A stretch of DNA of 64,000 bases from positions 260,317,863 to 260,381,862 of the forward strand of contig CP136064.1 in the NCBI GenBank assembly GCA_032622095.1, read 5' to 3'. The translations under genes were made by a program, and so were the position numbers. This document shows, piece after piece, positions 3,501 through 58,600 of the stretch. The notes beneath the pieces are model-generated. The model was not told the DNA's origin, did no database searches, and saw nothing but the letters and a program-made list of their open reading frames with translations. How positions within the stretch are numbered: the stretch's first letter is position 1; each line of letters begins with the position of its first letter. This stretch comes from Siphonodentalium dalli (lineage: Eukaryota > Mollusca > Scaphopoda > Gadilida > Siphonodentaliidae).

Positions 3501-6500
3501 TCTGTTTCCCCCATCAATTTCTATAAAATAGAAGAAATATTGTGTGTCATTGTATTGTTATTTAGCTTTAACCCTTTCAGTGCCAAGTCCGATTTTTGTA
3601 TCAACCCATATTTCCTTGATCATTTTTAGAGCTCTTTCCATCAATGTATCACATTATAATCAATAAATTTGAAAAATGATCAAGGAAATATGGGTTGATA
3701 CAACACAATAGTCAAAATTCACACATTCTGACACATTTTTGATCACAGAAGCCAATAATATGAGGGAAAAAAACATGTCTCGGTTGGAACAGAATCACAT
3801 CGATCGGTTTTGGTCATTTCTGTTTCAAAACCGAAACCTAGTTGTTTTCTCGGTTAACCGCCCATCATTAATTTATAATCTGCCTGGTTATTTCGCAATA
3901 GCGTTGTCAAATAAAGTATGTTGTTATGGTGCTAACCCAACCTAACTGATCATGTTCATGTAAACTTTTCTGTTTGTCAAAAATAAAAACACATTTAATT
4001 ATGTTCCTTGAATAAATCTACTTATATTACTGTATATGTTCAGAATTTGGGCTTACTTTATAGGCTGATAGACCAATAATAGATACTTGCAATTGATTGC
4101 ATGGACTGAGATCTTCCTCCAGCAGTTATAGGCGTCCATTCACCCAACACCTAGTGGAATCCCTGCTTACTCATTATTATAATCCCTCACCTCAACTATG
4201 TGGGGTGTGAACCCAGTTTCATGGTACAGGATTGAGTGACTTGTCAAAGACCATGTCAGGCCAGTTATTTAATTGAATACCTTTAGTATGAGTGACTGCA
4301 CAGCAGTTATTCCCGAAACTGATCCATAGATGACAGGAAGATTAGATCCACCTGATGGTGATGAAAACACGCAGTCATGTTGTGTTGCTAAATCATGCAG
4401 ACAGCTGTCAAGGTCATCAACTACCGCTCTCAGGGCATGGATAATCTTCTCAGATAATACCGCATTAACCGTTTCAAATACCTGCAATGAAGAAGGTAGC
4501 CTGTTTTTACAGTTACAGATATAGTGTGTCTTACATTCAAATACCTGCAATGAAGAAGGTAGCCAGTTTTTACAGTTACAGATATAGTGTGTCTTACATT
4601 CAAATACCTGCAATGAAGAAGGTAGCCTGTTTTACAGTTACAGATATAGTGTGTCTTACATTCAAATACCTGCAATGAAGAAGGTAGCTTGTTTTTACAG
4701 TTACAGATATAGTGTGTCTTACATTCAAATACCTGCAATGAAGAAGGTAGCCTGTTTTTACAGTTACAGATATAGTGTGTCTTACATTCAAATACCTGCA
4801 ATGAAGAAGGTAGCCCGTTTTTACAGTTACAGATATAGTGTGTCTTACATTCAAATACCTGCAATGAAGAAGGTAGCCCGTTTTTACAGTTACAGATATA
4901 GTGTGTCTTACATTCAAATACCTGCAATAACAGAGCAATGTTCCCAAGTCTGGATATACAGTAATGCCCTAATTCATCGACTGCTTAACCCTTTACCCAA
5001 CAAACCGGCCAAATAAAGCTTCAACAGCCTAAAATATCTTGAGTCTGTCTCAATAAAACCATACAAATATGGATATCATTGGAATCGGCTCATTGACCAC
5101 ATTGTGATAGTTACAGTTATGCCCTGTGCCAATGCATTCTCTTATATATGCGAGTCGACCATAGATCGCCTCGCATATATAAGAGAATGCATTGGCCTAA
5201 AAAAAATTTATAATTTTTTCTTACATTTTTTAACAATTAATATGTGTTAAGCCAATGCATTCTCTTATATATGCGAGGCGACCTATGGTCGACTCGCATA
5301 TATAAGAGAATGCATTGGCACAGGGCCGTTCTGTTGGGTAAAGGGTTAACCACAGCAGAATTATGGGTAACTTTTCAGGATTTAGTCGGAAATATGGCTT
5401 CTTACCATTCATCGGAAAGCTCTCGGGGAGAGCTTTCCGATGAATGGCAAAAAGCCATATTTCCGACTAAATCCTGAAAGGTTACCCATAATTCTGCTGT
5501 GGTTAAGCAGTCGATTAATTAGGGCATTACTGTAGTGCGTCTGACATTCAAATACCTGCAATGAAGAAGGTAGCCCGTTTTTACAGTTCTTGGTGCAATG
5601 AATCAATTCAAGCCTTTAAATAATTGCTATTTGACTGTCTGACATTTTGTGAAGCACCAAACAGACATTGTCTGGCATTTCAAAATGAGGCCTGACATGT
5701 CTTTTTTATCACCCAAAATAATGCCAATTATGTTCCTCTTCTCAAATGTCACTTTTTTACCACAAATAATGAAAATCTTCCCACCTTGGCCACAACATCA
5801 AACATGCTGGCCAATTTCAAGCTCAATTCTAAGATTATAGAAATTGCTCTGATCCCGTAGTACTAGTAGCATGTAAGGGTATGCCTACCATTATGAAAAT
5901 ATGACCGTATGAAATCCAGGACAGTATTATGTTATAACTCGAACAAGAGGAAAAACTTGTTCCATAATTTTCCAATTCCAATATTTTGTAGACATCCAAG
6001 TTCTAATCTGAAAAACCCAGATTTTGGCAAAACAAATAATTAAAAACTACTCTCCAATAGAATAAATTTCATTTAACAGCACACTACGTATATCAATTTA
6101 TTTGGCAAAATATCACATCACCAGTGATATTTTCCTTAATAATATGTCAATATTTCAACCTGTGACGCAATCCCGCACAGCAGGTTAGCAACACCAAATT
6201 TACCCTCTGGGAACCTCAGTCTGCTTAGGCCTCAACTGTTATGGGAGACCTAGGTTCAGATTTACATTTCTCAGTTGAAGTTGGTGATGTTCACCCATTA
6301 GTCACCTTGATTGTGCATTATATCTTCTGCAAATTAGGGGATAAAAAACAGAAGGGGAAAAAATAATCAAAAATAATGTTAATTTGAGATTATAGATACT
6401 TTCCAGAAGATGAGGCCTAAGCAGAATGGGGTACCCAGAGGGTGAATTTGGTAATGCTAGCCCATTGTGTGGGATAATATCACTAAATTCACCCTCTGGG

Positions 6501-9500: not shown

Positions 9501-12500
9501 TAAATGTAGGAATAAAAGCTCAGACAAAGGTATACCCTTGTATTGAAAATGTTCTAAGTCGAAAAAGGGGGATAACTCCACACAAAAAAAGTCAAACAGA
9601 ACTCATAATCCCAGTTGAACAGGTTACCATGGTGCTAAATAGCTGTGCCAAGTTTAAACAAAAATGACTATAAATTGTAGGAATAAGAGCTCAGACAAAA
9701 TTGCATCCACGGATGAATGGACAGACGGACAAGCTGATTGTAGTATACCCCCCACAACTCATTGCAGGGGGTATAATTAGGCTTGGAATTATTGGCCTAT
9801 TTGGAATGAAGTCTATAATCCTACCAAACTACACTAATTTCAGGGCACTCTGTTTGGTTCTAAAACTATGGTAATGTGTATACATACTAGTTGCTTGTTG
9901 TGGAATCTGAAGGTGGTAAAGTGTATACATACTAGTCGCTTGTTGTGGAACCTGAGATGTCGTCTCAGCAGATGGCGCTTGAGTATTACCGCTGAACAAT
10001 ACACACAGTGATAGTGACCGTCCTTCTTGAATTTATCAGTGCACAGAAGGTGACATTTAAGAATCAACATATCTGTCAAATAAATAAATAGAAGACTATA
10101 GACAATGAAAGTGAAAATGTTTAAATAAATTTCTCACTACAAGAGTGGTGTTATTTAACCCTTCCATGACTGGAGTTCCTAAAATTTAGTGAAAACCCTG
10201 TGCCAATGCATTCTCTTATATATGCAAGTCTCAATTATTAAATGTGTCGTCTGCTTGGGTCTGTGTCAGGCTCCATACGGGGGTGTTATTTAACCCTTTC
10301 ATGACGGCAGCTGAGCTGGTGCAGCATTAATGATCCTGTGCAGTGCAATCTCTTATATATGCAAGTCTCCCATAGGGAGCCTCGCATATATAAGAGAATA
10401 CATTGTACTAACTATATTTACCTTGACCTTGTATGTAAGCCAGTTCATTCTCTTATATATGTGAGGCTCCTTATGGGAGACTCGCATATATGAGAATGCA
10501 CTGGCACAGGATCTTAATTATTGTGTGCTTATTTCAGTGAAACAAACTGATAAGTGAGAACTGAGAACCCACAGAAATAATGTGGGACTTAACCCTTTCA
10601 TGGTGGGAGCTGCGCTGGTGTAGCATTAAAGATCCTGTGCCAGTGCATTCTCTTATATATACGAGTCTCCCATTGGGAGCCTCACATATATAAGAGAATG
10701 CACAGGCTTACAAGGTCAAGGTAAATATTGTTAGGCCAATGCATTGGCACAGTGGGCTAGCATCACCAAATTCACCATCATTCTGCATAGACCTCATATT
10801 CTGGGAAGTATCTATAGTCTCAAATTAACATTGTTTTTAGTTACTTTTTACCTTCTGTTCAGTTTCTATATCCCCTAATTTGCAGAAGATAAATGCATAA
10901 TCAAGGTGACTAATGGGTGAACATCGCCAACTTCAACGGGGGAACTTTAATCTGATCGTAGTTCTCCCATAGCAGTTGAGGCCTAAGCACAATGAGGTTC
11001 CCAGAGGGTGAATTTGGTGATGCTAGCGCACTGTGCGGGATAGCGTCAATAAATTCACCCTCTGGGGACCTCATTCTGCAGATAACAGACACACTATTTG
11101 CACCATTGTTCTTACCTCCATAGAATACTAAACGCTTGATATGAACACTTTGAATGTGATCCTGTACTTTGGCTGGTCTCTTACACGGCTTGAAATGTTC
11201 GATTGAGCAGAATGGACAGTGGATCTTACGACAGCCACACGCCTCGTCTTCACACCAATCCAGTATGATGTCTTCATCTTTCTTGAGGAATGTTGAGTGT
11301 GACCGCTGCTCAGGTGTCTGTAAGGAATCATATAAATCATATAAGTCATTACAATGAAAAATGTTTAAGGGCCCATTTAATTTTCAAGTCACCAAATATT
11401 TTTTATATATGGTTTTAATAACAATCTATGCCATAAAATATGATTAAAATACTATAATTCATTACTATTTGAAATATCTGTGTCTCAGAAGGTGCCCAAT
11501 GAGTAATAACTGAAATCAAATAACATTTCCCCCATTGTGGCTCCAAGAATGTACCAGAATTCAATGGAAGGGGAATAACTCTCTGTATCTAAATATATAG
11601 CGTTATCCCCCTTCCATTGAAAATAATAGACTGTGCAGAAACTTGAGCACAGAACATACGTCAGTATCTCAACAAACACAACATGTTCACACTTTATTAC
11701 ATCGAATAAGTTGAAAATACAATGTTTTGGAGAGCTCTTCCTCTTTCAAATGGTATATAATATGGCATATATTTTAAATGATATGATCTGGGGGTTCGAA
11801 TATTAAGTGGGCCTTAAAAGGTACCCAATCTGATTCGATGGTCCCCATATAATCAGATCCCACAACAACATTTTTAGAAATGCCGCTTCAGTTATCAGAA
11901 TCTATTAACTGCCAAAAATAATGCTAACCACTGTCAACTATAGTATAAAATTCCCCGAAACGTGTTATTTATCAACATGTTGTTCGACGAAATTTGGCCT
12001 TATTACCAACAGAAAGCCGCTTGATTTTAGAGTTATCCATCTTTTTCCGCAATTTGGTCCGAGACCGTCGACTGTTTACTGGGCCACTAATAATTCTCGA
12101 TGGTGAAAAATAATAGATTTCAAAAATCGATATCTAATAACTCTGAGCTTAGATATGCGGGTTCCTCGACTCAAATCAAATATTGTTTACCCCAGAATCC
12201 AAATAAATAGTAATTGAGGGGCGCTTAATCGGATTATGCATCTTTAACTCTATTTCAAGATTAAATTACTTTACTTTAGTGCTGTGACATATAAAAACAC
12301 GGTGGTAATTCTAAAATCACCCCGGGGTATACCCTATCATTGATTACTGATTATTAATAATCACACCGGGGTATACCTTATCATTGATTACTGATTATTA
12401 ATAATCACACCGGGGTATACCTTATCATTGATTACTGATTATTAATAATCACACCGGGGTATACCTTATCATTGATTACTGATTATTAATAATCACACCG

Positions 12501-29544: not shown

Positions 29545-29800
29545 GCCTTGAAATAGGGTGTCTGTCATTTGCAGAATGAGGTCCCCAGAGGGTGAATTTA
29601 GTGATGCTACCCCGCATAGTGGGCTAGCATCACCAAATTCATCCTCTGGGGACCTCATTCTGCTTACACCTCAGCAGAATGAGGTTCCCAGAGGGTGAAT
29701 TTGGTGATGCTAGCCCGCTATGTTGGGTAGCATCACTAAATTCACCCTCTGGGGACCTCATTCTGCAAATGACAGACACCCTATTTCAAGGCTTGTACAT
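29545..29800. mobile_element. hAT-like MITE, ~255-bp compact form
   Basis: Ends CAAGCCTTGAAATAGGG and CCCTATTTCAAGGCTTG around two arm pairs. This is the subfamily seen at 41065 and 55745. Confidence 0.85.
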
Positions 29801-40535: not shown

Positions 40536-40685
40536 TCACAGATCCATCAGAGTTGTAATGTCGTGTATGCGGTTCTTCCTGAGCTGTTCATGTGACATCT
40601 TCTTCCCAAATGCGCCTTGCATAAGTTGCCTTTTTCTCTCCTGTAGTTCCATCATTCTCTCTTCAATACTGTTCTCAACGATGAA
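40536..40685 (-). CDS. HLTF: HLTF terminal exon with stop codon
   Basis: The exon encodes FIVENSIEERMMELQERKRQ, LMQGAFGKKMSHEQLR and IHDITTLMDL, then TGA. It corresponds to the HLTF C-terminus (FIV-DSVEENML-IQ-KRELA-GAFG ... I-TLIDL). The acceptor is CATATTACAG. I saw no clear AATAAA signal close downstream, so the 3' UTR end is not placed. Confidence 0.94.
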   Translation of the reverse strand, partial: FIVENSIEERMMELQERKRQLMQGAFGKKMSHEQLRKNRIHDITTLMDL

Positions 40686-43600
40686 CTGTAATATGATTTA
40701 AACATATGTTATTATCCCTCAATAAAATGATAAAAATTGTTAAAGAATGTAAGAAAAATTATAAAAATGATAAATATTATTAAAGAATGTAAGAAAAAAA
40801 TTATAAAATTGTTAAAGAATATAAGAAAAATATCAGTAAATTTTTTTTTGGTACGCACTATTCCATGCCTGATAACGGCAAAAATTCCATTGTTAAGTTT
40901 GTTACCATAGCAAATAAGAACTATATTGATATACAGTATTCAACGATGCCGTAAACACAATTCTGAACTGTCCTCATTGTTATTACCATAATGCAACATC
41001 CGCTGTTTGTTACACCGGTGTAAACTTTTCCATAAACTGGCAGATACCCACTGGTATTCTGCAAGCCTTGAAATAGTGTGTTTGTCATTTGCAGAATGAG
41101 GTCCCCAGAGGGTGAATTTAGTTATGCTACCCCGCATAGCGGGCTAGCATCACTAAATTCACCCTCTGGGGACCTCATTCTGCTTACACCTCAGCAGAAT
41201 GAGGTTCCCAGAGGGTGAATTTAGTGATGCTAGCCTGCTATGCGGGGTAGCATCACTAAATTCACCCTCTGGGGACCTCATTCTGCAAATGACAGACACC
41301 CTATTTCAAGGCTTGCAGGCAGACGAAAAGCTAATACAAGTGATGAAGCATGAAATGTTCAAAAAATAAGTTCAATAAACAACCTTTGTTGCAGGATTTA
41401 GTCATGCAAAGAATAAAATCCAAGATGGCTGATGGTGGCCATGTTTTTTGGCCGAATGACTCCAAAATGACTTGTGCCCATCTGTATGTCAATATTAACA
41501 TAAATGACAAATTTCATGATGATCAGACAAACAGTATGGCCTGTAGTCCATGCTTATGGATTGAATTTTGAAATCCATGATGGCCGCTGGCAAACAAACA
41601 AACACTCCGCCTGCAGTCTGTGCTAATGGATTGAATTTTGAAATACAAGATGGCTGCTGGTGGCCATGTTTTTTTGCCGAATGACCCCAAAATGACTCGT
41701 TCCCATCTAGATATCAATGTCAAATTTCATAATGATCCGACCAAAGGTACGACGTGTAGCCTGTGCCAAAAGATTTAGTCATGCAAAGAGTAAAATCCAA
41801 CATGGCTGCTGGTGGCCATGTTCTTTAGCCGAACGACCCCAAAATGACTCGTTCCCATCTACATGTCAATATTAACTTACACGACAAATTTCATGATGAT
41901 CAGACGAACACTCCGGTCTGTAGCCCGTGCTAGTGGATTGAATTTTGAAATCCAAGATGGCCACTGGCGGCCATGTTTTTTTGCCAAATGACCCCAAAAT
42001 TACTCGTTCCCATCTACATGTCAATGTCAATGCCCATAACAAATTTCATAATGATCCGACCAAATGTACAACCTGTAGCCCGTGCTAAAGGAAATTGTTG
42101 ACTAATCATGCACACACACGCGCACTCACACACGCGCACACGGACGACGGATACCAAGCCATGGCATTAGCTCAAACTTTACAAAGTAAAGTTGAGCTAA
42201 AAAAGGATTTGGTTTTCAGGCCCCGCCGCATTGAAAAAAAATAGCCATTGAGGTTATTTATTATATTCTTGCAGCCCTTGAAATTAGGAAATATTTCCCA
42301 CAGCAAATTTAATACTGTGGCATTATAGGTTCCACATGTTGCCACAGCATTTACCATAGCATTGCTTATTGCCGTAGCCAATTTCAAGGACTGCTTGTTA
42401 CTGAAAAATCTCCCAATTTAAACCCTTGGAATATAAATTGAATACAGAAAAACACGAAACAATGTAAACATAATTGGGTTCACCAACAAACAGGCTCTTT
42501 GAAATAAACGGATATTCAAGACAAAAATATAATAGGAGAAATCTTTGCCATACGATATCAGATGGGTGTGTTATAAACACAAATCCATACAAACATATTA
42601 CTGTGACTAACTGGACTAATAAACACAAAGCCATACAAACATATTACTGTCACTAACTGGACTAATAAACACAAAGCCATACAAACATATTACTGTCACT
42701 AACTGGACTAATAAATACAAAGCCATACAAACATATTACTGTCACTAACTGGACTAATAAATACAACGCACTCCTTCAAATGCCGAAGAAGATTTAATTA
42801 AAGACCAGTGTGCAAGTCAGCAAATAATGTGTCTGTCCTTTGCAGTATGAGGTCCCCAGAGAGTGAAGCAAAGCAGGCTAACATCACCAAATTCACCCTC
42901 TGGGGACCTCATTCTGTTTAGGCCTCATCTTCTGGGAAAGTATCTATAGTCTCAAGTTAACATTGTTTTTAGTTTATTTTTCCCTTCTGGGATGTTTCTA
43001 TATCCCCTAATTTGCAGAAGATAAATTGCATAATCAAGTTGACTAACGGGTGAACATCACCAACTTCAACTGGGGAAATTCAATCTGATTCTGGTCTCCC
43101 ATAGCAGTTGAGGTTGAGGCCTAAGCTGCAGATGATACTTGACTGCTCCAAGCTCAACATACCATCTCAACTGGCATGCCGTATCGAGGTCGCTTCCAGG
43201 TCTCTGCTATAAACTGCATCAACACAGACTCTACCTAATGACTACATCCACTAAGAAGAAGCAGACTTTCCTAAACTCAGAATAGGAACTAAGCCCAGCC
43301 ACTTCCGATGTTTTGTTTATATTCACCATATCATGAATCTCTTCAATTAAGTATGCAGGATGTATATAAGCGGAGCTGACTATTCCCACAGTTAGGCAGA
43401 GTAGGTTCTCCTACCAAAGAAGGTATCTACCAGCTAGGTAAAGGTACCCAGAGGGTGAATTTGATGATCCCAGCCAAACATAAGGATAGCGTCACTAAAT
43501 TCACCCTCTGGGGACCTCATTTTGCAAAGACAGACACACTATTAGCAGGCTTGACAGTGTGTTATCCTCATGCCATCACACTTAAAGTGATGTGAAACAC

Positions 43601-46600: not shown

Positions 46601-49600
46601 GGACCCTTCATACCAAATATGAACCCATTCGGCCTTATGGCACTTGAGAAGAAGTTGTTCTAAGAATTACTATGGAGGGAAAGAGTTATGGCCCTGGTTT
46701 CGCAACTATTAGACCCAGTGAACTCATTTGAACAAATCTGAATGTGAGTCACCTAGGGAACATCCACACCAAATATGAACCGATTCGGTCCTAAGGATTT
46801 AAATAAGATGTTCAAAGAATTGTTGACGGACGGACGGATGGACGGTACGATGGAAGGATGGACGGACGACGAATGAGGAGTGATGACTAAAGCCAACATT
46901 TCCAGATAAACAAAGATGAATAACTCTAGAACGGAACACTGTCAAGACAAAAAGCCAACATTTACAGATAAACAAAGATGAATAACTCTAGAACGGAAAA
47001 CCAGAACAAAACAATTGAAAGCTCCATGACATGTCCTCTCAGTAGTGACAATCTATTCCAAATTTCATTGAAATCCGAGCACTACTGTTATAACCTGAAC
47101 AGACATCAGTTGGATGAACAAACAGAGAGACTGATGAAAAACAGTATATTCCCATCTTTATTTGTTTAAAAGGGGGGTTTAACAATATATAACTCTGAGT
47201 TAATGAAGTACAAACATTCACAGAATAAAACTTAGCCACTTGATTATTAATGCTTGTTAGTAGTGAATATGGGCACTGGTTTTGTGAACTGGGTAGCATG
47301 AATAGGCAGTTTCAGTTGCTTTGACTAAAATCACTGTTATAAAAGGTCGCTGGCCAAAATATCCCCTTGTTAGCAGACGTCAGGTTAAGTCCAACCCCTC
47401 CGAAGTACAGTTTACTTACTGGATCGAGGAGGTAGACTTTATTAGCAGACGTCAGATTAATACCCACCCCTCCAGAGTACAGTTTACTTACTGGATCGAG
47501 GAGGTAGACTTTATTAGCAGACGTCAGATTAATTCCCACCCCTCCAGAGTACAGTTTACTTACTGTATCGAGGAGGTAGACTTTATTAGCAGACGTCAAA
47601 TTAATTCCCACCCCTCCAGAGTACACAGTTTACTTACTGGATCGAGGAGGTAGACTTTATTAGCAGACGTCAGATTAATTCCCACCCCTCCAGCTTTGAG
47701 TGACAGCAGCATGATCGTTGGTGATCCTGGAGTCAGGTCGGAGAATTCATCGACCGACTTCACCCTCTTTACGGCGGTCATTGTTCCATCGAGTCGACTG
47801 AAGCTGAACCCATTTGACCTGATATGCATGAAAAATATTATTAACCCTTTACCCAACAAACCGGCCAAATAAAGCTTCAACAGCCTAAACTATCTTCGGT
47901 CTGTCTCAATAGAACCATACAAATATGGATATCATTGGAACCGGCTCCTTGACCACATTGTGATAGTTACAGTTATGCCCTGTGCCAATGCATTCTCTTA
48001 TATATGCGAGTCGACCATTGGTCGCCTCGCATATATAAGAGAATGCATTGGCCTAAAAAAAATCTTTTTTTAACACTTTTTACCAATTTTTCTTACATTC
48101 TTTAACAATTTTATAATTTTTAATGTGTTAAGCCAATGCATTCTCTTATATATGCGAGGCGACCTATGGTCGACTCGCATATATAAGAGAATGCATTGGC
48201 ACAGGGCCCTTCTGTTGGGTAAAGGGTTAATTAGATATCACATTGTTTTCCTTGAGCGACCTCTTATCGACCTCGGCTGATATCACGCCAAACTTGGCTG
48301 ATAACACATTAAACTCGCGAATAAGCCACCAAACTTGGCTGATATCAGTTGTGATGTCACCAGTCGACATGTAGTGTTTACGTCTAATGTAACAGCCATT
48401 CAAGGGACATAGCCACAATGATAGTCCAATATAATGAGAATTTCTAAATTGATTTGAGGTAATGGAGGTGACAGTTCCGTGCTATTTCAAACTGTTTACT
48501 CCCTAATTTCAATGTAAATTGTGAAAGTATTTAAGTATATTTAGTGATTTTTATTACAATCTACATGCTATCCATTCAATCTTAAGTTTACACCTATGAA
48601 CTGATATCGGAATGGATAGCAATGGTATTGCATATATGTGACCCGCCATATCAAATCCAGTCGTAAGTCGGGATTTTTTTACCCTGTGCCAATGCATTCT
48701 CTTATATATGCGACCATAGGTCGCCTCGCATATATAAGAGAATGCATTGGCCTAACAATTTTTTACAATTTTAATAATTTTTTCTTGTATTCTTTAACAA
48801 TTTTATAATTTCACCCACACAGAGCCCCAGACAAACATGAGCAGACAACACTCTTCTATATGCTTCTATATATGTGTGGGGCTCCCTGCAGGGTAATGGA
48901 TGTTTTTTATTTTATGTCCTAAAAATTGTAAGAAACATTTATTTAAAAAAAATGATAAAAAATTGTTGGGCCAATGCATTCTCTTATATATGCGAGGCGA
49001 CCTATGGTCGACTCGCATATATAAGAGAATGCATTGGCACAGGGTAAAAAAATCCCGACTTCCGACTGGATTTGATATAGTGGGTCATATATTATATCTA
49101 ATTAATAACGAGGTTATAATTTGGTTAGTTGGATATCCACTGAGGTGTGAACACACTCACCTCAAAGGGACTTGGACGAGGTCGAGCAATGATGTGAATT
49201 GTGATACAACGATGGACTTTGTGGATGTATCCTCCAGCCTGTTTCTCAACAGTGCATTCATCAGAGCATCAATCTGTAATGTGTTCATGGAATAATATTG
49301 TGTAAGCAGATTTGTGCAGAGCAATAAATGCCATTCATGAAATTGATTACTGAAGTAAGAGAAAAAAACTTGCAACTACTCAGATTTTCAGACTGAATCT
49401 GTCAAAAAAGAATTTCAAATATCATGCTAATGGCGTTAAAATCGCTAAAACTAGGGGCCATAACTCAGATATAAAAATGTGACAAACATGGATTTCGAAC
49501 TTGATTGAGATATTTTTTAGAGGTGCCACGATTATTGATTTTGATAATCTATAATCGGTCGTCAATAATCGACTATAATTGATTAATCGTACCTATAATA

Positions 49601-52600
49601 ACATCAGTGGAAGTATTCCATAATATGGCCTATTGGCTGGGTGCTGGTTAACTGCACTATCGCTGGTTGTTTGAGGCATCGGCTGATGTAATTTTTACGT
49701 TAATAAAGTGCATGATAAACCACTGTTAATGACCAATGGACACAATGAATTCAATACCAGCACAGTTCTCGGTGACAGGGTCCGCGCTGGACTGAAAATT
49801 ACTTTTGCCAAATGAAAATAATTTTTTGCCCAATTCGTTTAGAAGTTGCCAAATGCTATCTCCGATAGAATTAATTTATGCAACACAGTCTTATATTTTG
49901 GTAATCGTTATTTGAACGACTTACAATATCAATAGGAAAGCAGTTAAAGGTACTCAATCCGATCAGACACTCCTAAATTACTGTTTCTTTGGATTCGGGG
50001 GTAAAAAATATTTGATTCGAGTCGAGGAACCAACCCATCAAAGCACAGAGTGATTAGATATCGATGTTTGAAATGTGCTGTTTCTATTGTTTGTGGCCCA
50101 ATCTTTTCGAGGACCGCGTGCTAAAAACGGACAAATTGCGGTTGTAAGATGGATAACTCTAAAATCAAGTGGTTATTATTATCAATGTTGATAACTTTTC
50201 CAAAACACCATTAATATACAACTATAGTGTAATCCTGAAATTATTGGTTAATTGATTGACCAATTATTTTCAACTATCTTGAGAAATTAATAACAGACTT
50301 GCCAACACTTTTGCCAAATGACCATATTTTTGGCCAAATGTGAATTATTTTTGCCAATGGCAAATTTGGTAAGTAGCAGCGCGAACCCTGCTCGGCGAGT
50401 TTATGGTTATAATATTTGTAAGTTCATTAGAACGAATGTAACGATTAATTTCAGTGTTAGATCCAAACAATATAAAAGTAGGAATGCAAACAATATAAAA
50501 GTAGGAATGCACAATGGATGGCTGGTGGTTCCTAAAACAAGGAAACTGTAAGTTTCATCAAACTTCCAGAGCGTGGATAACAAACACAAAGGTGTGCCCC
50601 CACCCGCAAATTGCAGGACTCAGAACAAGTTAAGTATTTGATAATATCAAGTTTCATTCAGCATTCGCCGCATGAAACGTGTTAGCTTGTACTAGTAACA
50701 TATAAGTATACTTATGCAAACAAAGTATACGTATACTCGCAAGTGACATCGCGGAGAACATCACTGACTAAAATGCCGTAGGTTCCCTGGTTTCCAGAGA
50801 ATGTTAATCAACTCCCCATTGGTCCAATCAGATTCAAGGGTGAGGGCATTCAGTTCATTGAACACAGTGACAGTCGGCACATTTCAAGTATTTCAAGTAT
50901 AAATATACAATGACGTCGCCATAAGTTCAAAGCTGCAGTGCCGCCAATTTGTAGAATACACAACGACCCGAAAAGTAACCATGTCGCATCATCAAATGAA
51001 CTGCCTACTGTTTGCAACATAAGTTAGTACTACTCATGTTTTCAGAATCTCATTGATACGCGATCAAAGGTTGTTAACCCTTCGGTTGTAGATTAAACAG
51101 TGTAAAACAAACACGGTATTCAATAATACCCGGCATTTTCCGACAACGAAATAAATAATGCAGATTAATCGACGATGGAAATGGTAATCGATTATCGGCT
51201 TTATCAACGGTTCATCGATTATACGATTAATCGTGGCACCCCTAATATTTTTGTGGAAGATCAATATACCAAATGTGAATGGAATCGGTTGATGTTTGTT
51301 CAAGTTATCACAAGAAAAGTCTAAACCCTTTCATGACTGGAGCTTTCTGAAATTTTGTGAAAGCCCTGTGCCAATGCATTCTCTTTTATATGGGGGTCTC
51401 GCATATATAGAGAATACATTGGCCTATTACCTCAACATTGTAAGCAAGTGCATTCTCTTATATATGCAAGGCTCCCTATGGGAGACTCGCATATGTAAGA
51501 GAATGCACTGGCATAGTATCATTAATGCTGCACCAGTGCAGCTCCCATTATGAAAGGGTTAACATTGCTGAAAATAGACAAACTAAGGGCCATAATTCAG
51601 GTAAAAAAATCAAGACAAACCTGGTTATCAAAATCCATAAATAAACGACTAAGTTAGGAAGGATTAGCACCGCCCACCCCAACCATCCCTCATCAAATTG
51701 TCAGTCATGTTTTCTTGTTTAAATTGATGTGAAACATTCAGGTAGGGTGATCAAATAAAAATGGGAGATTAATCTTGCTCAAAGTAGTTATTTTAACAAA
51801 TATTATATCCAAATTGACAATACACACCACCATTATTATATATTAATTAAATGCAGTGACTCTCGATGGTGAAATCGTTTTCGTTAGCTTATCGCCGATA
51901 GTTGCATCCCGAATCGAGAAGTAAATATTTCAAATTGAGCGTAGTTCAGACGATGTTTTCTATGGAGTGGAACTGTTGATTTGCTTGAGATTTTCGCCGA
52001 TGTTACATTCCACCAGTTGGCACTGCGCCTGAATACTAAATTATCAGTTCCACGTACCTGAGCAAGTACATATGTATTTAAAACTTGACGGAAAATAAAG
52101 CCTGAGGAACAAATAATTAATTTTGGATGGATTTATGTATTAATTTTATAAATGACCTTTGAACTTGATTGCCAGGAGGCATCATCGACCTTGAAAGTTG
52201 GATTCTCTTTAGCATCATCCTTGGCCTGAGGAGGTGGAGGAACTTCTAATAATTTACTGGTATCTATTTCTCCTCGACACAGCGGGCATCTGGGTTGAGG
52301 CTGAAAGATGGTTTGAAATATTATTCTAAAACTTGCTGCAGGTTTTTTCCCAGTATCTCCAAATCATACATGTATTCCTTCATGTTTTATTTTCTGAGCA
52401 CATACAGTAATGCCCTAATTAATCGACTTCTTAACCACAGCAGAATTTTGGGTAACTTTTCAGGATTTAGTCGGAAATATGGCTTGTTGCCATTCATCGG
52501 AAAGCTCTCCCCGAGAGCTTTCGGATGAATGGCAACAAGCCATATTTCCGACTAAATCCTGAAAAGTTACCCATAATTCTGCTGTGGTTAAGAAGTCGAT

Positions 52601-55600
52601 TAATTAGGGCATTACTGTAAACCATTATATCCTGAAGTTCATGAGTAGCACTAGGGAGTGACTTCATCGACTTACTATTGGCTCCTGCGAATCCTGCATT
52701 TTTCATCAAATCTAACTTTGAATTGAAAATATGGATAATATAAAGACATGATGCACATTTGTCTGACTTAGATTTGTTACACATTCTGCATGATAAATCT
52801 CGCCTTCTCATTTCCGTTGACACTTTCTACACACATTCTACAGAAAACGTGAGCACAGTGCGTTATCACGGCATTCTTTAATGAATTGAGACATACTGCA
52901 CATTCCTCGTCAGAGTCTACTAAGGTTCGTTACACATTCTGCATGATAAATCTCACCATCTCATTTCTGATGACGCATTCTATACACATTCTACAGAAAA
53001 CGTGAGCACAGTGCGTTATCACGGCATTCTTTAATGAATCGAGACATACTGCACATTCCTCGTCAGAGTCTACTAAGGTTCGTTACACATTCTGCATGAT
53101 AAATCTCACCTTCTCGTTTCTGATGACACTTTCTATACACATTCTACAGAAAACGTGAGCACAGTGCGTTATGACGGCATTCTTTAATGAATCGAGACAT
53201 ACTGCACACTCCTCATCAGAGTCTGACTAAGGTTCGTTACACATTCTACATGATAATTCTCACCTTCTCGTTTCTGATGACGCTTTCTATACACATTCTA
53301 CAGAAAACATGAGCACAGTGCGTTATGACGGCATTCTTTAATGAATCGAGACATACTGCACACTCCTCGTCAGAGTCTGACTAAGGTTCGTTACACATTC
53401 TACATGATAATTCTCACCTTCTCGTTTCTGATGACGCTTTCTATACACATTCTACAGAAAACGTGAGCACAGTGTGTTATCACAGCATTCTTTAATGAAT
53501 CGAGACATACTGCACACTCCTCATCAGAGTCTGACTAAGGTTCGTTACACATTCTGCATGATATATCTCACCTTCTCGTTTCTGATGACACTTTCTATAC
53601 ACATTCTGCAGAAAACGTGAGCACAGTGTGTTATCACAGCATTCTTTAATGAATCGAGACATACTGCACACTCCTCATCAGAGTCTGACTAAGGTTTGTT
53701 ACACATTCTGCATGATATATCTCACCTTCTCGTTTCTGATGACACTTTCTATACACATTCTACAGAAAACGTGAGCACAGTGCGTTATCACAGCATTCTT
53801 TAATGAATCGAGACATACTGCACACTCCTCGTCAGAGTCTGACTAAGGTTCGTTACACATTCTACATGATAATTCTCACCTTCTCGTTTCTGATGACGCT
53901 TTCTATACACATTCTACAGAAAACATGAGCACAGTGCGTTATCACGGCATTCTTTAATGAATCGAGACATACTGCACACTCCTCGTCAGAGTCTGACTAA
54001 GGTTCGTTACACATTCTACATGATATATCTCACCTTCTCGTTTCTGATGACACTTTCTATACACATTCTACAGAAAACGTGAGCACAGTGCGTTATGACG
54101 GCATTCTTTAATGAATCGAGACATACTGCACACTCCTCATCAGAGTCTGACTAAGGTTCGTTACACATTCTACATGATAATTCTCACCTTCTCGTTTCTG
54201 ATGACGCTTTCTATACACATTCTACAGAAAACATGAGCACAGTGCGTTATCACGGCATTCTTTAATGAATCGAGACATACTGCACACTCCTCGTCAGAGT
54301 CTGACTAAGGTTCGTTACACATTCTACATGATAATTCTCACCTTCTCGTTTCTGATGACGCTTTCTATACACATTCTACAGAAAACGTGAGCACAGTGTG
54401 TTATCACAGCATTCTTTAATGAATCGAGACATACTGCACACTCATCAGATTCTGAATAAGGTTCGTTACACATTCTACAGAAAACATGAGCACAGTGAGT
54501 TATCACGGCATTCTTTAATGAATCAAGACATACTGCACACTCCTCATCTGAGCCTGACTAAGGTTCGTTACACATTCTGCATGATAAATCTCACCTTCTC
54601 GTTTCTGATAACACTTTCTATACACATTCTGCAGAAAACATGAGCACAGTGTGTTATCACAGCATTCTTTAATGAATCGAGACATACTGCACACTCCTCA
54701 TCAGAGTCTGACTAAGGTTCGTTACACATTCTACATGATAATTCTCACCTTCTCGTTTCTGATGACACTTTCTATACACATTCTGCAGAAAACATGAGCA
54801 CAGTGTGTTATCACAGCATTCTTTAATGAATCGAGACATACTGCACACTCCTCATCTGAGCCTGACTGTAGCACAGTGAGGAGAGTTTCTACCAGCTTCT
54901 TCCTCAAATCCTCATTGATGTTCACGCCACTCTTCGCAACGGTTTCTGAAAATGAAAATGAGATGTGACATCCAGTTTCATAAGAACACCCCTACTCGGA
55001 CTAAGGCAATTAAAATATCTGTGTTCTCAGGCAATTAGATGAGGATGGGAAGCATTTCATTTTAATTTTTTTCTCAAAATCTGGAAAACACACTCAAGAA
55101 ACCAAATTTACTTTCGCTGTTCAAACCAATATTTCTAACAGAAAATATTGAAAAAAATGTTTGCCGAGGCTTTTTAAAAGAAAATTCGGGAGGTGCCCAA
55201 GAATAGATTTTTTAAATTATTGAGCGTAATTGAATAATGGACATATTAAATTCTACTTTATTGCCGGGCAAAGCAGACTAATCTTAAAATACATTATAAT
55301 AATGCATTTATATAGCGCATTCCACAGTAAATTAGTTTCAATGCGTTTTACATTTTATTTATTTATTATTGCCCCAGTTACAGGGCATTGATTACCAATC
55401 CTTGCTTAGGAGGAAGGAGCTAATGAGTGCATCAGGATTACCATACTGACATAACCCAACGACTTCCGACCGGATACTCGGTAAACAGGTGAGTCCCCAC
55501 GACAATTGTAGTATGAGATCGCTAGCCAGAGGGAATTAATGTGGCATTTGACGTTCAATGGCAGAGAGCGGTATTCGAATGCACGACATTTAACCCCATG

Positions 55601-58600
55601 ATGTTACACAAGTCAAAAACGCTAACCACTGGAACACAGTGCCACTATGAGCAAAGGCAAATTTTGAACATTGATTTTGTGAGAATTAGGGTTGAAAAGT
55701 TAGTCAACCAGTCTACACCGAGTCGATTATTAACGAAGTCAACCAAGCCTTGAAATAGGGTGTCTGTCATTTGCAGAATGAGGTCCCCAGAGGGTGAATT
55801 TAGTGATGCTACCCCGCATAGTGGGCTAGCATCACCAAATTCACCCTCTGGGGACCTCATTCTGCTTACACCTCATGTAATATAAACATGACCTGTCCCT
55901 TCTAAAATATAGAACATGTAACATATTACATCAAATTAAATTGTATATTTTTCCAAGGTAAATTTTGGGGAATAGCTTAACGTTTCCATCACTGGAATTT
56001 CCTGAAATTTTGCGATAACCCTGTGCCGATGCATTCTCTTATATATGTGAGTCCATCTTAGGGAGCCTTGCATATATAAGAGAATACATTGGTCTAACAA
56101 TATTTACCTTGACCTTGAATGCCAGTGCATTGTCTTATAAGCGTGGCTCCCTATGGGAGACTTGCACATATAAGAGAATACACTGGCACATGGTCTTTAA
56201 TGCTGCACCAGCACAGCTCCTGTCATGAAAGGGTTAATTTCTTAAGTGAACTGATCGCATAAATGAAACTTATTTATAAATAAATGAACCGAAAATTGTG
56301 AGCTCACCAACTGTTTCTTTGGCAATAGCTGCAGCCTTGGCAACCAGCAGTGGATGACAGCACAGCTGTCTTAACCTCATCATGATCGCCAAAACCTGAC
56401 CGTAGTGGTGAAGCAAAGTACCTTCCTGGAAATATCTGCAAATATATACAAATGTATTACAAGACCGCCTCACGTTACACAAATTTCTGTCACTGAAATA
56501 TCTGCAAATATAATACAAGCTATCCTCACAGAACAAGAAGTTGCACCTTGGATGCTGGAATACCTCCATGTTGCCAAATTAAAACATGGCATGATGGAAA
56601 CCAAAATTAAACAAGAGATTGCACCACGGGTGCTGGGATACCCCCATGGTGAAAATTGAAATATGGACAGGTCAGAAACCAAATTGTGAAGAAAAAATGT
56701 GATGAACAAACGAATTACTTGACAATGCTATCGAAAGACGGACAGAAATCCAACATTTTCAGATAAAGAAAGAGGGGTAACTCTTTAACGGAAAATGTGA
56801 ACAAAGTCAGTGAACCCATTTTTGTAAGCCCTCCTGATGCCAAACCTTCATACCAAATTTCATTGAGATCCGATCAGCCATGGTTGAGATATATGAGTTG
56901 ACAAATGGACGGACGGATGGCTAGATGGACGCATGTGATCCACTATACCCCCATCTTTTGGGATAGGGGGATTAATACACAAAGAACAAGTGCCCCCGAC
57001 TGAACAATCAGAGAGGATTTTTCTTATTTTTGTGCAAATGCTTATTAAATGGCAGTTTGTAAAGTTATGTTATTCATGAGTAAACAATCCAAAATCAAGT
57101 TATCATCTGGAAACCAAAAAAAGTAGCAGAAAACCTGAATTTTCTAAGTCCAAAAAGAGGCGTAACTCTGGAAAAAATGGGCGGACGAAACCACGGCTAT
57201 GGGGAAATCTTGTCCCCCCCGGCTGGTCTATTAGCATACCAAATATCAACTGAATTGAGTTAGCGAAACCAAAGTTATGAGTTGAAACGTTCGTACGGAC
57301 AATTTTCTAAGTCCAAAAAGGGGCGTAACTCTGGAAAAAAAGGGCGGACGAAACCGCAGTTATGGGAAAATCTTGTCCCCCCCCCCCCGGCTGGTCTATT
57401 AGCATACCAAAGATCAACTGAATTGAGTTAGCGAAACCAAAGTTATGAGTTGAAACGTTCGTACGGACGGACGGACGGACAGACGGAGGGCTCCACTATA
57501 TACCCCCAAATCTCCATCGGAGATCGGGAGCATAATAACACTAGAAGAGAAAATACAAACATCATTGGGCACTCTTTTGAAAACAGTCATGATGATGAAT
57601 CTTCATACAAATTCCATTTAGATCCGATAACCCATGGCTGAGATATCTGAGCAGACGGACAAAAACAAAGAATTCAGATAAAAACAGAAGGATAACTCTA
57701 GAAATCGAGAACAATGTTGTTCCTATTTTGAAAGCAGTAGTGATGGCGAACCACGATACTAAAATTCCTTCAGATCTGATAACCGATGGCTGAAATATAT
57801 GTCAGGATATACAGACTGATGGAAAAAGTCAATACATTCTACTGCCCATTTCCTTTGAAAAGTGTGCGATACAGTGAGTAAAAATATCTGCAAGAAATAT
57901 ATGTATAACATGACAATAGAATTCTATAGATAGAACGAACATTGTAGAATTGTATTCTATGAAAATGTCAATGCATCAAGTGATGCATCCATTCATTTTT
58001 TAGAATTCTTTGAATAAGATTTGAAAAAAATAACCTCCCTCCCTCTTCCAACTAACCATATAGCATGAGAACATAGATATTTATTTTTAAAGATGGTCTA
58101 TCTCTTCCTAAACACGTTTTATAGTTTCCGGGGTATAAAATAATAGATGTGGAGCTCCGTGGTCCAGTGGTTAGCGCGTTGGACTTGTCTTCGCTGTCAA
58201 CACAGCGAGGCGAGTTCGCGGCTGGCTGGTGGTCTGTTATGAGTTTCCACACAGCAGTGGCTTGGCCGACTTGAGCGATGTGCAATTGTTGGATTGTACA
58301 CTGTTTGAATCTCGCGCCAAGTTGTGACCCTTGAGCAAGGTCGCTCGTACTGTGTCTGCTTTGCACCACCCATGCATTATAAGGGTACCTGATAATGAGC
58401 AGTGAAAGATCTTGTCAGTATGCTAGCCATATGGTATCCTCGCATACTCCCGGCTGTACCTCCCCCTGTCCCGGGGAGCAGTAGATGGTTACTGAATGTT
58501 CAGGCTCATCAGGGTAATAATTGTAAAACTTTGAGCGCTTTGGGCCTCATGGGAAAGGCGCTTTACAAATGCTATACATTATTATTATTATGTTATAAAT

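Follow-up and report, generated by a model that had tools for sequence, protein, structure and literature searches.

Why should copies of an exon end that lie within an intron differ from one another almost only by silent changes? The question is raised by a stretch of 64,000 nucleotides from the scaphopod Siphonodentalium dalli (hereafter the window), located on contig 4 of a 2.23-Gb assembly of nine contigs, in which the end of the RING exon of HLTF is repeated many times.

The HLTF locus

HLTF lies on the minus strand, starts past the right edge of the window and ends at 40536. The ten exons that can be joined from the window give an unbroken reading frame and a 529-residue protein, in which Pfam finds SNF2 (PF00176, residues 11-227, 6e-47), a C3HC4 RING (zf-C3HC4_2, residues 274-315, 8e-11) and Helicase_C (PF00271, residues 355-471, 5e-18), in an order that places the RING between both ATPase lobes. 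The top PDB match of this protein is RAD5 (1e-90). HIRAN-region exons were located upstream by tblastn with an approximate human HLTF query; together with the Walker A exons, they lie within 46 kb beyond the window. Judged by its sequence, the gene is of the HLTF/Rad5 type, an SNF2 ATPase with a RING, and it looks to be present in a single copy. Two of its exons are of main concern here:

54749..54945, minus strand: RING exon of HLTF, 197 nt, with acceptor TTTTCAG, donor GTGAGA and an open frame; matched by the Pfam RING
52156..52300, minus strand: next HLTF exon, starting at 52300 and carrying the last two RING zinc ligands

Fragments of another HLTF exon (63988), each with the end of its intron, are found on contigs 1 and 6 (L036 997-1106, L037 1084-1160 and L038 1040-1116). 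They are embedded in common sequence, with 98.7% between L037 and L038 over 2.1 kb and 83-86% between L036 and either of them over 0.7 kb, as though a mobile or duplicated element had brought them there. The window also contains near-perfect long hairpins (52400-52640, 55790-55870, 29571-29766 and 41091-41286), some of which recur within it and which are probably short inverted-repeat elements.

The RING-exon array

Fourteen recognisable copies of a 154-bp unit run head to tail on the minus strand at 52777-54865, and all the copies announced in the earlier note, about 14 including those of 151 and 102 bp, were found. In a full unit, 117 nt from the end of the RING exon are followed by 37 nt of intron; the copies are as follows:

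54712..54865, minus strand: u1, end of the exon and first 37 nt of the intron
54558..54711, minus strand: u2, intact
54456..54557, minus strand: u3, 102 bp, donor lost through a 52-bp deletion between two AGAATGTGTA motifs
54305..54455, minus strand: u4, 151 bp, GAG lost, Asp>Glu
53073..54304, minus strand: u5 to u12, eight intact copies, whose differences within the 117 nt are all silent
52921..53072, minus strand: u13, replacements; one base deleted at the acceptor-like junction
52777..52920, minus strand: u14, truncated, donor GT>GC and several replacements

Ten copies (u1, u2 and u5 to u12) form the intact set. What had been described as an amplified exon is in fact an exon end: rather than standing as an exon of its own, copy 1 forms the 3' end of the 197-nt exon at 54945-54749, continuous with the upstream 80 nt of that exon, while the other 13 copies are intronic. 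Since the following exon starts only at 52300, u1 is the one copy joined on its 5' side to coding sequence, and no other copy can take its place, as skipping u1 means losing the upstream 80 nt. In the alignment, 12 of the extra copies span the RING-exon donor, making the array one of tandem units that contain the splice junction. Of the eight RING zinc ligands, six are carried by each unit and two are encoded in the exon at 52300-52156, so a single unit falls short of a whole RING. The translations confirm that the zinc ligands had been rightly called intact, as those of the unit are undamaged in every intact copy, with the restriction that only six of eight are held there. A DNA search of the 2.23-Gb assembly gave no match to the unit beyond the array, all 14 matches listed among the best-scoring candidates lying inside it.

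Silent and replacement differences

Among the ten intact copies, 10 coding variants were counted, of which 9 are silent (P = 3e-6 to 2e-4, according to the assumed transition bias). The single replacement is a Gly/Asp difference at codon 2, at the left edge of the unit, with Gly in u1 and u3 and Asp elsewhere; human HLTF presumably has Gly at this position. The mean pairwise difference per site in this set is 0.178 for silent sites, 0.002 for replacement sites and 0.047 for the 37-nt intron part. With u3 masked past its breakpoint, the inner 12 copies show 13 variants (11 silent, 2 replacement), and the count for all 14 copies, which takes in the columns hit by the deletion of u3, is 14 silent and 11 replacement. 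Replacement sites are also less variable than the adjoining intron part (1/94 versus 4/37, P=0.02). The number of replacements does not rise steadily with distance from the exon (Spearman 0.22, P=0.47). The silent excess supports protein-level selection in the past of the inner copies, as the earlier note had proposed. Its statement that every difference between intact copies is silent holds for nine of ten, with codon 2 as the exception, and its restriction of replacements to the two outermost copies fits u13 and u14, which have several replacements and also lack one base at the junction, but overlooks codon 2 and the Asp>Glu of u4.

Part of the silent excess could stem from mutation at CpGs, a factor that the earlier note leaves out. 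All eight CpGs of the unit vary among the 14 copies; seven are coding, six of these lie on codon borders, and in the intact copies CpG-type transitions make up 5 of the 9 silent variants (sites 12, 51, 60, 72 and 99). These features would suit a young array free of selection, with few variants that happen to be silent through codon-border CpG hot spots and chance. However, the 14 possible coding CpG transitions divide equally into 7 silent and 7 replacement, and those seen in the inner copies are six silent and zero replacement, the only CpG replacement being in u14. Moreover, when 13 variants were drawn at random (40,000 draws for each of 15 settings, with CpG rates of 1-40x), at least 11 were silent in at most 1 of 10,000 draws. 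Hence, mutation bias alone is not enough to explain the silent excess and an origin without selection is very unlikely, while the greater variability of silent sites relative to the intron part is explained in part by CpG decay.

Other junction arrays in HLTF and elsewhere

The RING array, the only one described in the earlier note, belongs to a class of junction arrays. Of the 40 junctions tested in 144 kb, 6 have direct copies that cross the splice site, four of them at donors (RING, motif V-VI and HIRAN exons and one neighbouring-gene exon) and two at acceptors (Walker-A exon and another neighbouring-gene exon). Besides the RING array, these are:

47370..47693, minus strand: second HLTF junction array, 72 bp x 4.5, exon end GGVGINLTSANKVYLLDP and donor of the motif V-VI exon
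C4:260423219-260423806, right of the window: HIRAN-exon donor array, 54-bp unit, 11 copies (x 10.9)
C4:260408028-260408340, right of the window: Walker-A exon acceptor array, 47 bp x 6.9
4473-4928 of the window, minus strand: neighbouring-gene acceptor duplication, 63 bp x 7.3
9869-9955 of the window, minus strand: neighbouring-gene donor duplication, 45 bp x 1.9

The peptide of one neighbouring-gene exon gave no match in Pfam. A decayed old copy of the start of the PHQKQALNW exon, just upstream of that HLTF exon (C4 ~260409771-260409836), was left out of the 40-junction count.

The HIRAN array serves as a control within the gene. Compared with its exon copy, and leaving out two edge columns, it holds 3 silent and 10 replacement variants; one copy contains a stop, the donors of four are altered, and the array has decayed like neutral DNA. 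Its silent/replacement counts differ from those of the RING array (Fisher P=0.005 with the inner 12 copies, 0.003 with the ten intact copies), which rules out a general silent bias in all junction arrays. The other two HLTF arrays offer too few changes to judge: the full copies of the 72-bp array contain 2 silent and 1 replacement variants (4 and 2 including the partial copy), and the Walker-A array, read by eye, shows one Ala>Val and one change that is silent on one reading of a split Gly codon.

Elsewhere in the assembly, junction copies are present at no fewer than 3 of 17 SNF2-family loci, all of which were run through Tandem Repeats Finder and four of which were inspected by eye. At one of them (L021 1-999), a 27-bp unit, whose exon end ATCTACCACAG runs into GTATAAAT, occurs at least 37 times after an SNF2-family donor, while units of 64 bp (L020) and 41 bp (L024) occur twice each at acceptors. 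In all nine junction-array cases, the true exon occupies an edge of the array and the extra copies extend into the intron, as expected if only such duplications spare the message. When each array is counted once, the 6/40 junctions compare with 4.4% of control points (P=0.008; 5/39 and P=0.028 without the RING junction), while the unweighted control (71/400, 17.8%) shows no excess at junctions. Arrays can thus not be said with confidence to be strongly enriched at splice junctions. Some of the exon ends used in the junction test are off by one or two bases, and the four neighbouring-gene exons were set by eye.

Splicing signals and the possible use of the copies as exons

If the intact copies were real exons, their 37-nt introns would be spliced out and the protein would gain one 39-residue half-RING module after another, all identical and each subject to selection at the protein level. 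This reading accounts directly for the silent bias. It is also helped by the structure of the full unit, in which a junction AG is followed by 117 nt in phase 0-0 and a GTGAG donor that is intact in 12 of 14 copies, by the presence of both copies that lose the frame at the junction (u13 and u14) among those with replacements, and by the neutral evolution of the HIRAN array, whose units cannot be spliced as exons. The signals upstream of the unit speak against it: the pyrimidine fraction before the array AG is 0.38, compared with 0.56-0.81 in all 12 of the HLTF acceptors checked, and no yUnAy branch point was found in the 37-nt intron. Furthermore, because u1 cannot be skipped, the extra half-RINGs would have to be added to a working RING. 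The proposal that the repeats are used as exons is thus weakly supported, with the silent bias on its side and the pyrimidine-poor acceptor and missing yUnAy match against it, and we regard true exons as unlikely. It is a little less likely again that the nine intact extra copies are translated as a row of 39-residue, six-ligand half-RINGs while at least one other junction array of HLTF is neutral.

The silent bias would equally fit intronic copies that are included in the message by occasional mistake, the in-frame intact copies being near-harmless and the broken ones harmful, so that weak selection cleans the array. Units of 117 nt do preserve the frame and their donors resemble those of real exons, but the acceptor is as weak for mistaken as for regular inclusion, the broken copies u3, u4, u13 and u14 persist, and selection at low inclusion would hardly produce a ratio of 9 to 1; we therefore consider this improbable. 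Tandem arrays are also prone to assembly error, and the true number of copies could be lower, or alleles could have been merged into one array. Such an artefact is extremely unlikely, as most copies are distinct, two are broken in different ways, the nine contigs are nearly chromosome-sized and further arrays occur in the same build.

Proposed exchange between the exon copy and the array

The account that we favour, with slightly better than an even chance of being right, is that the array exchanges sequence with u1, the sole copy under selection. In this account the array is a minisatellite that arose when DNA spanning the RING exon's 5' splice site was duplicated in tandem. With u1 as presumably the only copy that is normally spliced, unequal crossing-over or gene conversion would shuttle sequence between u1 and the other copies, and would do so among the chromosomes of a variable population. 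Selection would then purge the replacements that arrive in u1 and let through silent changes, many of them at codon-border CpGs, such that the array would come to sample the silent variation that a constrained exon carries, whereas copies that have not traded recently, such as u13 and u14, would decay.

Mosaic copies support such exchange. The four-gamete test is failed by 30 of 91 site pairs, seven of which involve only non-CpG sites, and the combination of C at site 81 with A at site 124 is restricted to u1, which looks like a recombinant with array copies. Some of the four-gamete failures, however, could have been produced by recurrent mutation. The exchange account is further supported by the robustness of the silent bias to CpG rates of 1-40x, by the low variability of replacement sites relative to the intron part, and by the confinement of the listed unit matches to the array. 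In addition, it draws on the weak acceptor and the lack of a branch-point match in the 37-nt intron, and on the similar junction arrays with intron parts of 10 to 20 nt, the units of which could hardly be exons.

The notion that the repeats are repeatedly copied from a functional gene survives only if the source is the adjoining exon copy. Another functional gene as the source is rejected: every listed match to the unit lies inside the array, and the protein search off the locus returned weaker SNF2-family or RING matches and the three short HLTF exon fragments. A simple conveyor, in which the copies are snapshots of one exon lineage, was also set aside by reasoning from u1 and u12. Dead copies should gain more replacement than silent changes outside CpGs, and these two copies differ by 1 replacement and 6 silent changes.

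Simulations with selection on u1 alone show that the exchange would have to be very frequent. In these small-population models, which indicate orders of magnitude only, conversion from u1 brought 33 of 60 arrays to a replacement/silent ratio of 2/11 or less at a scale (population size x events per array) of 1600, 11/60 at 480 and 0/60 at both 160 and 40. Symmetric conversion did so for 7/60 arrays at 1600 and for 0/60 at 480 or less, and with symmetric unequal crossing-over the ratio stayed at 2.6-4.5 and 1.7-4.1, compared with a neutral value of 4.15. That the bias appears only with very frequent conversion weighs against exchange, as do the damaged copies u3 and u4 near the exon and the distribution of replacements, which shows no steady rise with distance from it. 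Since the HIRAN-exon array has not been purified, exchange would also have to be much stronger at the RING array.

Significance

If the exchange account is true, selection on one exon copy keeps in check the intronic copies with which it exchanges sequence, and the locus would be a natural test system for the cleaning of a tandem array by one functional member. It would also serve as a warning that a silent-only pattern is no proof of repeat translation. If, on the other hand, the copies are translated, they would represent an unusual route to zinc-binding repeats in a DNA-repair protein. With a nearby copy at 6 of the 40 tested junctions in 144 kb, gene prediction here may face many false extra exon ends.

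Comparison with known systems

Tandem repeats undergo concerted evolution through unequal crossing-over and gene conversion. The RING array is alike in its mosaic copies and in the variants that they have in common, with the difference that only u1, at the edge of the array, is known to be joined to coding sequence, and selection would thus enter at one end. In the open-licence literature, no report was found of an exon array in HLTF or of silent-only divergence among intronic copies of an exon edge.

In human duplicated genes, minisatellites at exon-intron boundaries vary between paralogs and are able to create new introns (De Grassi & Ciccarelli 2009, PMC2812944). The likeness lies in units that extend across a splice boundary; compared with the cases described there, the RING array is made of 154 bp x 14 in a seemingly single-copy gene, and its inner divergence is nearly all silent. 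Tandem exon duplications and mutually exclusive clusters (Ivanov & Pervouchine 2022, PMC9013439) similarly have repeated exon-like units in one intron, which in the RING array come with donors, junction AGs, phase 0-0 and a length of 117 nt. In contrast to those clusters, the RING unit lacks the 5' part of its exon, to which u1 is fused, its weak acceptor was born at the repeat junction, and the peptides of the intact copies are nearly identical. Finally, intron gain through tandem duplication across an intron-exon border has been described (2016, PMC4974935). The RING array resembles that process in the duplication over the border, and differs in that it needs no new intron position, its copies extending an existing intron. 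The kind is already known, and the RING array is a variant of it.
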